From a virus, in the IMG/VR virus record IMGVR_UViG_3300037264_002089, positions 1-22,127 of that record: 22,127 bases of DNA, one strand, 5' to 3'. Position numbers and translations under genes: made by a program. Of the stretch, positions 3,433 through 17,451 are shown one piece after another; within the stretch, counting starts at the first letter, position 1, and each line of letters begins with the position of its first letter. The notes under the pieces were generated by a model. The model saw only the letters and a program-made list of their open reading frames with translations. It was not told the origin of the DNA and made no database searches.

Positions 3433-4865
3433 ATCTCGCCGTCCTCCAATATCTCACACCCGAAGAGCAGGCCGAACTCGATAGCCTCCTGATTGCCGCA
3501 GGCCCCTTGCCCACCGAGCGGCCCACGTTCGGCGCGTGGATGGCGCAAGCCCGACCCGAGTACCGCTGGGACTACCCGCATTTCGTGGTGATGCAGCGCG
3601 TGTTGGACCGCGCCACCGCTGGCGAGCTACAGCGGGTGTTCTTCCAGGTACCCATCCGGCACGGCAAGAGTGAGCACAACACAATTAGCTACGCGGCCTA
3701 TCGGCTGGAGTTCAACCCGGCGACGCGGATTATCGTGTGCAGTCACAGCGAGAAGCAAGCGCACAAGTTTTCGCGGGAGATCCGCAAGCTGGCGCGCACC
3801 CGCGGCGTCACCGTCTCCGCGGTACGGGACACAGCGGGCGAGTGGGAAACGGTGCGGGGAGGGGGCGTCCGGGCGTTCGGCGCCGGTGCGGGTCTCGCGT
3901 CTGTCAACGCCGACCTCGTGTTAATCGACGATCCCATTGGCTCTCGCGCCGACGCGGAGTCTCAGCCGGTTCGGGACCGGGTGTGGGATTGGTTCACCTC
4001 CGATGTCTTGGCCCGCTGCGAGCCACATACAGTGGTCTTGTTCACGATGTCCCGCTGGCATACGGACGACCCCGCGGGACGGCTCCGAGACCGGCAAGCC
4101 ACGCGCTGGCACATCGTAGACCTTCCCGGCCGGGCCGAGCCCAACGATCCGCTCGGACGGGTGGAGGGCGCGCCCCTGTGGCCCGAACTCCGCGGCGAGG
4201 AATGGCTCGACAACGAACGCGCGGACCTCTTGGAGTACGGATTCGCCTCGCTCGTACAAGGCCGTCCGCGCCCCCGCGCCGGCGGCATGTTCAAGTGGGA
4301 TTGGTGGCAACTCTTGGACGCCGTACCCCAAACCGGCCCCATGCTCCGCTACTGGGACCTCGCGGGGACAGATGCCAAAGGCCGAGGCCACGACCCGGAC
4401 TACACGGTTGGGGCCCTCTTGACCCGAATGCCCGATCTCCGCACCGCCATCGTGGACGTGGCCCGGTTCCGCAAGTCCATCGCCCCCCGGGACGCGGAGC
4501 TCGAACGCATCGCTCGGGAAGACTTGGCCACCTACGGCTACCGTATCCACTGGTGGATTGAAACCGAAGCGGGCGTGGCTGGCGCGGATCGTACCGCCCA
4601 GTTGGTGCGTCGGCTCCAATCGTTTGGGCTCACGGTCTCCACCGAGCACCCCACGGGCAAGAAAGTCCTACGTGCCGAGCCCTTGGCCTCCGCAGCCGAA
4701 GCGGGCAACATCCTTCTGTGTCCAGGGGCGTGGCGGGACGCCTTTCGCATGGAGGCCGCCGACTTTCCCACGGGCACCCATGACGACCAGATCGACGCCG
4801 CGGCCGGGGCGTTGGCCAAGCTGGTGCGTCCGTCTTCCGCCACCGTGATCCGGGTGCAGACGTGA
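3429..4865 (+). CDS. terL: Terminase large subunit (ATPase-nuclease)
   Basis: This 478-aa protein is the DNA-packaging motor, which docks on the portal, translocates DNA with ATP and cuts concatemers. The ATPase domain shows a Walker A-type loop VPIRHGKS (residues 74-81), Walker B VLIDDP (164-169) and the coupling motif FTMSRWHTDD (205-214). The RNase H-like nuclease domain shows YWDLAGTD (308-315) with Asp310 as the likely first metal ligand, DYTVG (324-328), the IETEAGVAG block (377-385) and C-terminal HDDQIDA (451-457). Length is typical. It starts at GTG 3429 overlapping the previous stop and ends in a GTGA overlap with the sugar cassette. The portal, normally next, has been pushed 4.6 kb downstream by that cassette. 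Confidence 0.97.
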   Translation: MNLAVLQYLTPEEQAELDSLLIAAGPLPTERPTFGAWMAQARPEYRWDYPHFVVMQRVLDRATAGELQRVFFQVPIRHGKSEHNTISYAAYRLEFNPATRIIVCSHSEKQAHKFSREIRKLARTRGVTVSAVRDTAGEWETVRGGGVRAFGAGAGLASVNADLVLIDDPIGSRADAESQPVRDRVWDWFTSDVLARCEPHTVVLFTMSRWHTDDPAGRLRDRQATRWHIVDLPGRAEPNDPLGRVEGAPLWPELRGEEWLDNERADLLEYGFASLVQGRPRPRAGGMFKWDWWQLLDAVPQTGPMLRYWDLAGTDAKGRGHDPDYTVGALLTRMPDLRTAIVDVARFRKSIAPRDAELERIAREDLATYGYRIHWWIETEAGVAGADRTAQLVRRLQSFGLTVSTEHPTGKKVLRAEPLASAAEAGNILLCPGAWRDAFRMEAADFPTGTHDDQIDAAAGALAKLVRPSSATVIRVQT

Positions 4866-5860
4866 CCGATCCGCTCGCGGGGCAAGACGTGCTGGTGACG
4901 GGGGGGACGGGCACATTTGGTCATGCGTTCCTCGCCCATGCCCTGACCACCTCCGTGCGCCGGGTGGTCATCCTCTCCCGGGACGAGCTCAAGCAAGCTC
5001 AGATGGCCGCCGCCTTCCCCGACCCCCGAGTACGGTACTTGATCGGGGACGTGCGGGACCGCGAGCGTATCCGTCGGGCGTTGCGTGGCATCACGATCGT
5101 CCTGCATGCCGCCGCGATGAAGCGGATTGAAACCTGCGAAGCGGAACCCATCGAAGCCGTCGCCACCAACGTGACCGGCACGCTCAATGTGGCCCTCGAA
5201 GCGGTCGCGGCTGGTGTGCGGCGGGCGGTCTTTCTCAGTACCGACAAGGCCCCAGGCGCCCATACGTTGTACGGGATGACCAAGGCGGTGGCGGAGCGGG
5301 TGTGGTCCCGTGCCAACGTGTACGCCGCCGGCACCCGTACCAGACTCGCGGCCACGCGCTACGGCAACGTCCTCGGTTCACGCGGGTCCGTGCTGGGGCT
5401 GTTCCAACAGCAACGTGCAGCCGGCCTCCCGCTCACGTTGACCGACGAGGCCATGACGCGCTTTTGGATGCCGCCCACCGCCGCCGTCGAGATCGTCCTC
5501 ACGGCCTTGCGCGACATGCGGGGCGGCGAAGTGTTCGTGCCCAAGATCGGGAGCTGCCCGACGCTCACGCTGGCCCGTGCCGTGGCCGAACGCACTGAGG
5601 GCGAGACCTACGCGCCCGGACACCTTGTCACGGGCGTGCGTCCCGGGGAACGGCTGCATGAGACCTTGATCTCGCATGAGGAGGCGCGGACCACGCGGGA
5701 GTGCGGCACCCACTACGTCGTGCTCCCAGAGTCCCGGCCGTGGGAAGACACGCAGTATGCCATCCCCGGTCACCCGGTCGCCCCCGAGTGGAGCTACCGC
5801 AGCGATACCAATCCCCACCAACTCACGACCACAGAGCTGCGGGCGATGATCGCATGCTGA
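4862..5860 (+). CDS. pseB: UDP-GlcNAc 4,6-dehydratase, PseB-like (extended SDR)
   Basis: This 332-aa protein belongs to the FlaA1/PseB branch of nucleotide-sugar dehydratases. These convert UDP-GlcNAc to a 4-keto-6-deoxy sugar, with C5 epimerisation in PseB, as the first step to pseudaminic acid. Visible features are the NAD-binding TGGTGTFG (13-20), SRDELKQ (39-45), GDVRD (62-66), HAAAMKRI (82-89), and the catalytic STDK (126-129) with Tyr137 and Lys141. PseB-type RYGNVLGSRGSV (166-177), MTRFWM (198-203), GGEVFVPK (221-228) and RPGERLHE (270-277) are also present. Length is normal and no motif is missing. It overlaps terL by four bases and the NeuB-like gene by seven, so it is co-translated with the packaging genes. 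An inverting versus retaining role cannot be settled by eye. Confidence 0.9.
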   Translation: MTDPLAGQDVLVTGGTGTFGHAFLAHALTTSVRRVVILSRDELKQAQMAAAFPDPRVRYLIGDVRDRERIRRALRGITIVLHAAAMKRIETCEAEPIEAVATNVTGTLNVALEAVAAGVRRAVFLSTDKAPGAHTLYGMTKAVAERVWSRANVYAAGTRTRLAATRYGNVLGSRGSVLGLFQQQRAAGLPLTLTDEAMTRFWMPPTAAVEIVLTALRDMRGGEVFVPKIGSCPTLTLARAVAERTEGETYAPGHLVTGVRPGERLHETLISHEEARTTRECGTHYVVLPESRPWEDTQYAIPGHPVAPEWSYRSDTNPHQLTTTELRAMIAC

Positions 5861-16276: not shown

Positions 16277-16447
16277 ATGACCACGGGCGCGTTGCGGCTA
16301 CAGGTGAATGGCGAAGGGACCGTGCTGCCACCCCATCCGCTGCGCGTGGCGATCTTTGCCGCGCTGCGCGAGATGGAGGCTGGGCCCGGGCAGACGCCGG
16401 CCACCGCCGCGGCGATCCGCTTGCTCCGTGAGGCCGTGGGCGAGTGA
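16277..16447 (+). CDS. 56-aa protein of unknown function
   Basis: ATG 16277 lies one base after the adaptor's TAG, and the TGA stop overlaps the GTG of the second DUF115 gene (GTGA). The 56-aa product (MTTGALRLQV..., ending AAIRLLREAVGE) has a short N-terminal strand-like part, a helix 'LRVAIFAALREMEA', a Gly/Pro/Thr linker and a C-terminal helix. The chaining and protein-like composition support it as a real gene. No family is recognised. Small proteins at this point after the adaptor are sometimes head-tail joining factors, but no such motif is visible. Confidence 0.6.
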   Translation: MTTGALRLQVNGEGTVLPPHPLRVAIFAALREMEAGPGQTPATAAAIRLLREAVGE

Positions 16448-17451
16448 ACGGCCACACCCGCGATCCCCGCGCGCCCATGGCGATGGCCGACACCGTGAAG
16501 TGTCAACTCAAGGTGCCGGGGCAGATGCATTTCTTTGAGCAGATTATCGCCAACGCAGGGACCGACGTGGTGACGCTCAACAGCCACCACGGACAGCGGG
16601 TGGTGATTGCGGGGGCGGGTCCTTCGTTGCGCGAGCTGTCCGCCCTCCCTCCAGCGGACGAGTTCTGGGCCTGCAATAGTGCGCTCCCGTATCTCGTGGA
16701 CCACGGCTGGCCGGTCACGCATGGCGTCACCATCGACCAGGGCGAGCGCATGCTCGAGCCGGCGGAGTGGGGGCGCGCGCGCGTGCCGGCCTACTACTGC
16801 GCCTCGAGCGTGCATCCGCGCGTGGTGCAGTTCCTGCGTCAGACCGGAAGCCGCGTCACGTTCTTTCACAGCCTCCTCGGGGTGGATAACCCCTCGGACT
16901 GGGCGGGCGCCATCGACAGCGGTGGCCAGCGCGTGACGAATTACGAGCTCTGGCTGTATCGCTCCCTGTACCCAACCTCGGTGCAAGTCGGGCACGGCCT
17001 GAACAGTGTCCCGCGGGCCGTGTGCCTCGCGTTGGCGATGGGCTTCGCGGACATCTTCGTGGTCGGGGCGGATTGTGGGATGCCGGATGGGGCGCCGATG
17101 CCCGAGTACGGGACGCCGGCCTATGGCGCGTGGATGGACCAGCTCGTGATGTACGCCGACGGCCGCACGGCGGGGCAGTGTTACGGGCACCATGACCCGA
17201 TTGCGGAAGCCGTGTTCGAAGGGCGCCGCTGGCACACGCGGGCGGATATGGTCATCAGCGCCACGCACCTGCTGGAGCTGCAACGCGACTTCCCCGGGCG
17301 CATCACGCTGCTCGGGGATACGCTGCCCAACGTCATGCGGTTTGAGGACCCCGAGTGGATGGCCAAGATGCCGTCCTTGACGGGCGTGGGCGTAGTGGAC
17401 GGGTTCGGCCGTCCAGACTCTTTGACGGCGCTCAGCGCCACGAAAGGCTAG
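16444..17451 (+). CDS. DUF115/Maf-like (GT42-like) putative glycosyltransferase, copy 2
   Basis: This 335-aa paralogue of the protein at 12619 shares its motif order. 'RVVIAGAGPSLRELSAL' (52-68) is even closer to the GT42 loop (G-x-GPSL) than copy 1. 'FWACNSALPYLVDHG' (74-88), 'VTHGVTIDQG' (91-100), a VHP block, 'RVTFFHSLLG', 'GHGLNSVPRAVCLALAMGFADIFVVGADCG', 'WHTRADMVISATHLLEL' and LLGDTLPN follow. GTG 16444 is used because of the GTGA overlap; ATG 16477 is an alternative. Overall identity to copy 1 is moderate and the central part differs most, suggesting different acceptors. Being next to the virion-like proteins at 17459-21503, those are its best acceptor candidates. A pterin-kinase role (MptE) is the main alternative but unsupported by context. 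Confidence 0.8.
   Translation: MNGHTRDPRAPMAMADTVKCQLKVPGQMHFFEQIIANAGTDVVTLNSHHGQRVVIAGAGPSLRELSALPPADEFWACNSALPYLVDHGWPVTHGVTIDQGERMLEPAEWGRARVPAYYCASSVHPRVVQFLRQTGSRVTFFHSLLGVDNPSDWAGAIDSGGQRVTNYELWLYRSLYPTSVQVGHGLNSVPRAVCLALAMGFADIFVVGADCGMPDGAPMPEYGTPAYGAWMDQLVMYADGRTAGQCYGHHDPIAEAVFEGRRWHTRADMVISATHLLELQRDFPGRITLLGDTLPNVMRFEDPEWMAKMPSLTGVGVVDGFGRPDSLTALSATKG

Follow-up and report, generated by a model that had tools for sequence, protein, structure and literature searches.

Why should a phage keep genes that resemble those for nonulosonic acid synthesis in the midst of the genes that build its head? This question is raised by the IMG/VR virus record IMGVR_UViG_3300037264_002089, a linear entry of 22,127 bases that is probably a fragment, and that was analysed whole and is called the window here. 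A six-gene sugar cassette (4862-9505) has the large terminase gene on one side and the portal gene on the other, and two genes of the DUF115 family (12619-13620 and 16444-17451) are placed among the head genes. The initial annotation had proposed that the phage makes a nonulosonic acid activated with cytidine monophosphate (CMP) and puts it on its own virion. Our answer, held with moderate confidence, is that the locus encodes nonulosonic-acid glycosylation of the phage's own head proteins. The genes in question are as follows.

4862..5860, plus strand: PseB-like UDP-N-acetylglucosamine (UDP-GlcNAc) 4,6-dehydratase (PF02719, E 1.9e-79; PDB 2gn4, E 1.3e-70)
5854..6645, plus strand: NeuB/PseI-like synthase of 263 amino acids (aa) with an ATG start, barrel only (PF03102, E 7.5e-33)
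6642..7310, plus strand: DUF218 protein, a constant cassette member (PF02698, E 5.9e-20)
7438..7821, plus strand: U127, a protein of 127 aa with no family, a constant cassette member
7797..8462, plus strand: SpsF-like cytidylyltransferase (PF02348, E 8.8e-16; PDB 6oew, E 5e-11)
8459..9505, plus strand: PseC-like DegT aminotransferase (PF01041, E 7.1e-48)
12619..13620, plus strand: DUF115a, Maf-fold candidate transferase, between the Mu-F and scaffold genes (PF01973, 44.0 bits, cut-off 34.6)
16444..17451, plus strand: DUF115b, the other candidate transferase, downstream of the head-tail adaptor gene (PF01973, 33.1 bits, just below the cut-off of 34.6)

The PseB-, NeuB-, SpsF- and PseC-like genes had already been recognised between terminase and portal, and PF02719, PF03102, PF02348 and PF01041 bear out these four assignments; the DUF218 and U127 genes were missing from that first list, and with them the order in the window becomes PseB, NeuB, DUF218, U127, SpsF and PseC. 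Profile searches assigned, as head genes, the large terminase (TerL), portal (DUF4055), Mu-F, scaffold, P22-type coat and head-tail adaptor. The stop codon of one gene overlaps the start of the next at TerL/PseB, where the GTG start of the PseB-like gene overlaps the terminase stop, and at PseB/NeuB, NeuB/DUF218, SpsF/PseC, PseC/portal, portal/Mu-F and Mu-F/DUF115a, and on this basis one message probably serves for the translation of the sugar genes and the head genes. A 43-codon open frame (7310-7441), with overlapping stop/start signals at both ends, spans the gap between DUF218 and U127.

We scanned IMG/VR with DUF115, NeuB, portal and coat and mapped the matches by tblastn; the loci or records of this analysis are designated by L-numbers. 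Loci in which all six genes were detected had them in the same order as the window, with about 33-77% identity per protein among relatives, and an origin of the cassette by chance or mis-annotation was ruled out because its genes recur in this order across many contigs. The portal-anchored count covered 28 loci and the window, and it describes this family rather than phages at large, since the portal alignment was built from the loci of the family itself. Upstream of the portal, 11 records extend for 7 kb or more, and 10 of them have all six cassette genes; downstream of it, 16 extend for 3 kb or more, and 15 of them have DUF115. Near-duplicates occur (L013/L014 and L021/L042 are >99% identical, L029/L044 about 91%), and these 15 records represent 13 distinct ones. 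The lone exception to both counts was L058, whose portal is 27% identical and which has neither the cassette nor DUF115. The position of DUF115 among the head genes is likewise conserved across the relatives. The cassette follows the terminase in the window, a related terminase follows the cassette in L038 and L047, and a different terminase follows it in L004, indicating that the cassette stays together while its neighbours change. A search of 23 family records detected NeuB (PF03102) in 12. The 17-kb record L022 lacks it, and no portal turned up in the part of this record that was mapped. Extra tandem copies of DUF115a occupy the Mu-F/scaffold slot in two records (L022:3628-5666 and L023:4425-5704).

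Among the cassette enzymes, the NeuB family profile had its best match in the pseudaminic acid synthase 8h2c (E 2.2e-44). Residues E19, K47, K126, H207 and H228 (numbered as in the window protein), which correspond to active-site positions, are invariant in eight relatives and align with the Neisseria meningitidis enzyme. The eight aligned proteins are 240-264 aa long, and the solved 290-residue NeuB 6ncs hints that short forms of this enzyme exist. The SpsF-like protein, as judged from its sequence, is a cytidylyltransferase and not clearly PseF (24.1 bits with the PseF model vs a cut-off of 205.7), and it resembles cytidylyltransferases of 3-deoxy-D-manno-octulosonic acid (Kdo) too. The PseC-like protein scored 136.9 bits with TIGR03588 (cut-off 423.5) and 128.3 bits with the LegC model, and its closest PDB match as a single sequence was a perosamine synthetase. 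U127 gave no match by sequence or fold, and a pattern-based scan of genome_contigs confirmed 0 of 3 stretches. In L004, a frame between SpsF and PseC (3375-3854) is weakly sulfotransferase-like (PF13469, E 2e-4, under the cut-off) and perhaps serves a further sugar modification.

The two DUF115 proteins (333 and 335 aa, 39% identity) surround the scaffold, coat and adaptor genes and carry the G-x-GP-[ST]-L loops CGAGPTL and AGAGPSL, as the initial annotation had noticed. It had also set beforehand a fold comparison with Maf, the flagellin nonulosonate transferase, and with sialyltransferases. An AlphaFold2 model of DUF115a from 20 aligned relatives (predicted local distance difference test score, pLDDT, 88.7; predicted template modelling score, pTM, 0.87) gave Maf 5mu5 as the first-ranked match in Foldseek (E 4.5e-9), and VIA-align superposed it on Maf residues 244-498 with Z 17.6 and a root mean square deviation of 3.5 over 216 aligned residues. 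More distant matches by VIA-align were M. jannaschii HPPK (Z 13.8), SteA (10.4), mammalian sialyltransferases (about 8-10) and CstII (8.7). The predicted fold of DUF115a is therefore most like that of Maf, a likeness that concerns the core domain only: DUF115 is about half as long as the solved Maf (632 residues), whose N- and C-terminal domains are absent. The suggested resemblance to GT42 sialyltransferases stood for the fold and the motif order and fell short in sequence, since the DUF115 profile matched the Campylobacter jejuni sialyltransferase 2p2v in two colinear motifs at an E-value of 0.54, which is not significant. An insert with paired cysteines, which looks like a zinc-binding loop, is present in DUF115a of L004 (9947-10996), L015, L019, L024 and L033; the window protein has no such insert.

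Outside the family, PF01973 and PF03102 were run over the full length of 50 records, most of them picked because their coat or portal proteins are distant. NeuB was found in L070 and L095. DUF115 was present in both and also in L037, which belongs to the family but is truncated ahead of the cassette and was dropped to leave 49 records. In these, DUF115 coincided with NeuB in 2 of 2 records vs 0 of 47 lacking it (p 8.5e-4, with kinship ignored and many records being fragments), so that, as the initial annotation had anticipated, the two occur together above chance in the records searched. L070 belongs to a sister lineage, its terminase, portal and coat being 63%, 42% and 47% identical. In it, portal and Mu-F enclose genes for NeuB (25%) and a different cytidylyltransferase, and a DUF115 gene separates Mu-F from scaffold; PseB and PseC were not seen by tblastn in this whole 17.4-kb record, and a search for further members of the lineage returned L070 alone. 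L095 is from a phage rich in sugar genes, with DUF115 (detected by the family model only) about 6 kb before NeuB. The coat gene of L095 is split (8699-10891) by about 1 kb containing a 309-aa frame that, by eye, is homing endonuclease-like.

In a collection of 50,697 phage records, DUF115a and NeuB of the window had no tblastn match, and the L095 NeuB query had three, one of them a bacterial contig. The 484-kb uncultured phage LR756508 (L145:8247-13065) has one GT29 sialyltransferase gene before NeuB and three after it, a pairing that we count in favour of self-glycosylation, and in MH319754 SpsF, DegT and NeuB genes adjoin a gene for an unassigned 224-aa protein. The DUF115 profile confirmed 0 of 47 stretches in genome_contigs, where the pattern step limits sensitivity, and no host was therefore found.

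If sugars are transferred to head proteins, which proteins receive them? The genes to be considered are the following.

17459..17866, plus strand: virion protein of 135 aa rich in serine and threonine (Ser/Thr, 26.7%), 7 bases downstream of DUF115b and its candidate acceptor (phrog_3758, E 8.2e-17)
11085..12632, plus strand: Mu-F-like head morphogenesis protein, a possible acceptor of DUF115a (PF04233, phrog_3517)
14528..15673, plus strand: major coat protein of P22 type, a possible acceptor of DUF115a (PF11651, phrog_283)
9502..11088, plus strand: portal protein, given as context (phrog_145, E 1.6e-100; PF13264)

A second DUF115 gene outside the Mu-F/scaffold slot occurs in six records (the window, L016, L019, L023, L024 and L025), and in all six the next gene encodes a protein of 128-135 aa with 23-27% Ser+Thr, compared with 14.4% for the coat and 12.9% for the portal protein. 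These second DUF115 genes are thus paired with Ser/Thr-rich proteins of about 130 aa from two dissimilar families, which is new here. The first type, in the window and L023, matches phrog_3758 ("virion structural protein"); the second is matched to phrog_240 ("head protein") in L019 and L025, and the L016 and L024 proteins align with it without a phrog match. Comparison of the phrog_3758 and phrog_240-type profiles detected no relationship. The adaptor is present in 20 family records, of which 18 extend at least 1.2 kb beyond it (L013 and L061 were dropped as too short), and the pair was present in 5 of 5 records with a second DUF115 vs 0 of 13 without (chance 1 in 8568, kinship ignored); these proteins were themselves the source of the two acceptor profiles, by which other head proteins would escape detection. 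One of the 13, L022, encodes a phrog_3758 protein at another site, on the edge where the record is cut. The pair of L023 is located before Mu-F, indicating that the DUF115 gene and its putative acceptor move together. The pairing argument is limited by L067 and L078, which have weaker phrog_240-type relatives and no DUF115, and scanning with the phrog_3758 protein returned only two already known records and so gave no independent test. On the basis of the pairing, we regard these proteins as candidate acceptors, a point that goes beyond the initial annotation.

Further observations concern the same end of the window. Two tandem 283-aa genes of no family, with 78% mutual identity, follow the candidate acceptor (17873-19575). 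Farther on, a 466-aa Gly/Ser/Thr-rich repeat protein (20103-21503; 27.5% Ser+Thr) has a weak match to phrog_19041, a virion structural family, and is possibly another glycan carrier; a DNA tandem-repeat scan listed nothing within this gene. At the opposite end, the protein encoded at 20-853 contains repeats of proline and glutamate, which in the DNA have a period of 36, and it matches a virion protein very weakly.

These genes suggest the following course of events. The cassette would convert host UDP-GlcNAc to a pseudaminic-acid-like nonulosonic acid and activate it with CMP: PseB would dehydrate, PseC would aminate, NeuB would condense the product with phosphoenolpyruvate, and SpsF would load CMP, and the N-acetylation and the removal of UDP may be supplied by the host or by U127 and DUF218. 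Next, DUF115a and DUF115b, as single-domain proteins of the Maf fold, would move the sugar, in the cytosol, onto Ser/Thr of head proteins, DUF115b acting on the Ser/Thr-rich head protein encoded next to it and DUF115a on a core head protein, either coat or Mu-F. Any benefit might lie in shielding, mimicry or stability. We also put forward, more tentatively, a wider proposal, in which single-domain Maf-fold transferases and dedicated Ser/Thr-rich head proteins form a modular system of pairs, a shortened nonulosonate route with U127 and DUF218 in place of PseH and PseG supplies the donor, and the sugar is one not yet described.

Several results weigh against self-glycosylation as we propose it. 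The family-level matches are clear, but the PseB, PseC, PseI and PseF assignments are all under the equivalog cut-offs of NCBIfam; in addition to the aforementioned PseC and PseF scores, PseB had 333.9 bits with TIGR03589 (cut-off 407.75) and the PseI model gave 136.6 bits (cut-off 340.25). In 14 records, which are probably fragments, PseG (TIGR03590) was found in none vs 8 of 14 control genomes, and the PF13302 acetyltransferase, the only acetyltransferase model used on the whole records, in none vs 14 of 14 controls. Two of the six classical steps to CMP-pseudaminic acid are accordingly without a recognised enzyme in these records, and a complete pathway was not accepted. The SAF domain (PF08666) was absent from NeuB in all 14, with no separate SAF subunit either. 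The fold model is that of DUF115a, and the peak hydropathy of DUF115b, 1.93, exceeds the usual mark of 1.6, so that its placement in the cytosol is uncertain. PF01973 is absent from the NeuB phages LR756508 and MH319754, the latter having no recognised transferase, and L019, at 38 kb the longest of the 11 family records without NeuB, has two DUF115 genes, although its sequence ends 2.7 kb before the portal. Ser/Thr-rich frames follow the adaptor also where there is no second DUF115 (L018, 273 aa, 23%; L047, 118 aa, 24%), and the tandem DUF115 extras have no such neighbour, being followed by scaffold in L022 and by the contig end in L023. The proposal that a CMP-nonulosonate is made and put on the virion thus gained from the conserved head location and the candidate acceptor, and lost from the missing PseG, PF13302 and SAF and the scores below cut-offs. 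Our confidence stays moderate because L070 turned out to belong to a sister lineage and because unpaired genes, too, encode proteins rich in Ser/Thr.

The main rival is that the nonulosonate decorates surface sugars or flagellin of the host, blocking superinfection or changing a receptor, and that the place in the head operon sets late expression. The literature offers precedents: a prophage-encoded acetyltransferase modifies nonulosonic acids of a capsule (PMC6586298), glycosyltransferases of pelagimyophages have been interpreted as acting on lipopolysaccharide (PMC7029224), and the known Maf targets flagellin (PMC11339370). We nevertheless consider host-surface modification unlikely, since the DUF115 genes hold fixed positions among head genes, where late expression would be expected, second DUF115 copies are paired with head-protein genes, and none of the scanned window proteins pointed to a gene for a lipid carrier, flippase or polymerase (the other records were not all searched).

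The donor may also be another compound, an amino sugar made by PseB and PseC or a Kdo-like acid, destined for the virion or for DNA. The two unassigned steps, the Kdo-like side of SpsF and the perosamine synthetase match of PseC are all compatible with this, and PMC12619734 refers to the hypermodification of DNA with sugars by enzymes of phages. NeuB, however, is present in every full cassette, keeps its active-site positions and is nearest to pseudaminic acid synthase, so that a different donor seems quite unlikely to us. A role of the DUF115 proteins outside sugar transfer, as MptE-like pyrophosphokinases or in head assembly, with the cassette a separate matter, is very improbable: PF01973 is named after MptE, viral relatives are annotated as MptE-like and the M. 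jannaschii enzyme ranks second in the fold comparison, but Maf fits the fold better and the linkage with NeuB would be left unexplained. We therefore continue to prefer glycosylation of the phage's own head proteins.

If this preference is correct, phage self-glycosylation would be extended from mycobacteriophages to sialic-acid-like sugars, and the role of virion glycans could be tested beyond actinobacterial phages. The locus would also be a source of short O-glycosyltransferases that consist of one domain and have small natural acceptors, and DUF218 and U127 would stand out as candidates for the steps now missing from nonulosonate synthesis.

How does the locus compare with known systems? 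Phage virion glycosylation, nonulosonate transfer by Maf and the MptE-like annotation of viral DUF115 are already known; as far as we found, self-glycosylation with a nonulosonate is new for phages, and no phage system of this kind was recognised in the open-licence literature among the matches listed. Compared with PseBCHGIF and Sps of Bacillus subtilis, the cassette likewise brings together relatives of PseB, PseC, NeuB and a cytidylyltransferase; it differs in that PseG and PF13302 were not found, DUF218 and U127 are added and NeuB has no SAF domain. According to PMC7439481, B. subtilis spsF is required for legionaminic acid transfer, which we count in favour of our proposal. The enzyme MptE, a 6-hydroxymethylpterin diphosphokinase, shares the family PF01973 and a related fold with DUF115, but the fold match is weaker than that of Maf and the neighbours of DUF115 are sugar and head genes. 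To GT42 and GT29 sialyltransferases the predicted fold of DUF115a is related and the two motifs are colinear, whereas the match in sequence does not reach significance. Maf itself transfers CMP-nonulosonates onto Ser/Thr, and the likeness of its PF01973 domain to CstII is established, according to PMC11339370; DUF115a is predicted to have its nearest fold there and differs in consisting of the central domain only, in a phage head operon without flagellin. A close biological parallel is offered by mycobacteriophages (Che8, Corndog and Myrna), whose glycosyltransferases modify their own capsid and tail tube, one of Che8 and one of Corndog being termed essential for capsid glycosylation (PMC12363180, PMC12619734). 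Both there and, as the gene context suggests, in the window phage, phage enzymes would act on the phage's own virion; the window phage differs in carrying a candidate donor pathway as well, in the DUF115/Maf fold of its candidate transferases and in its putative sugar, a nonulosonic acid.

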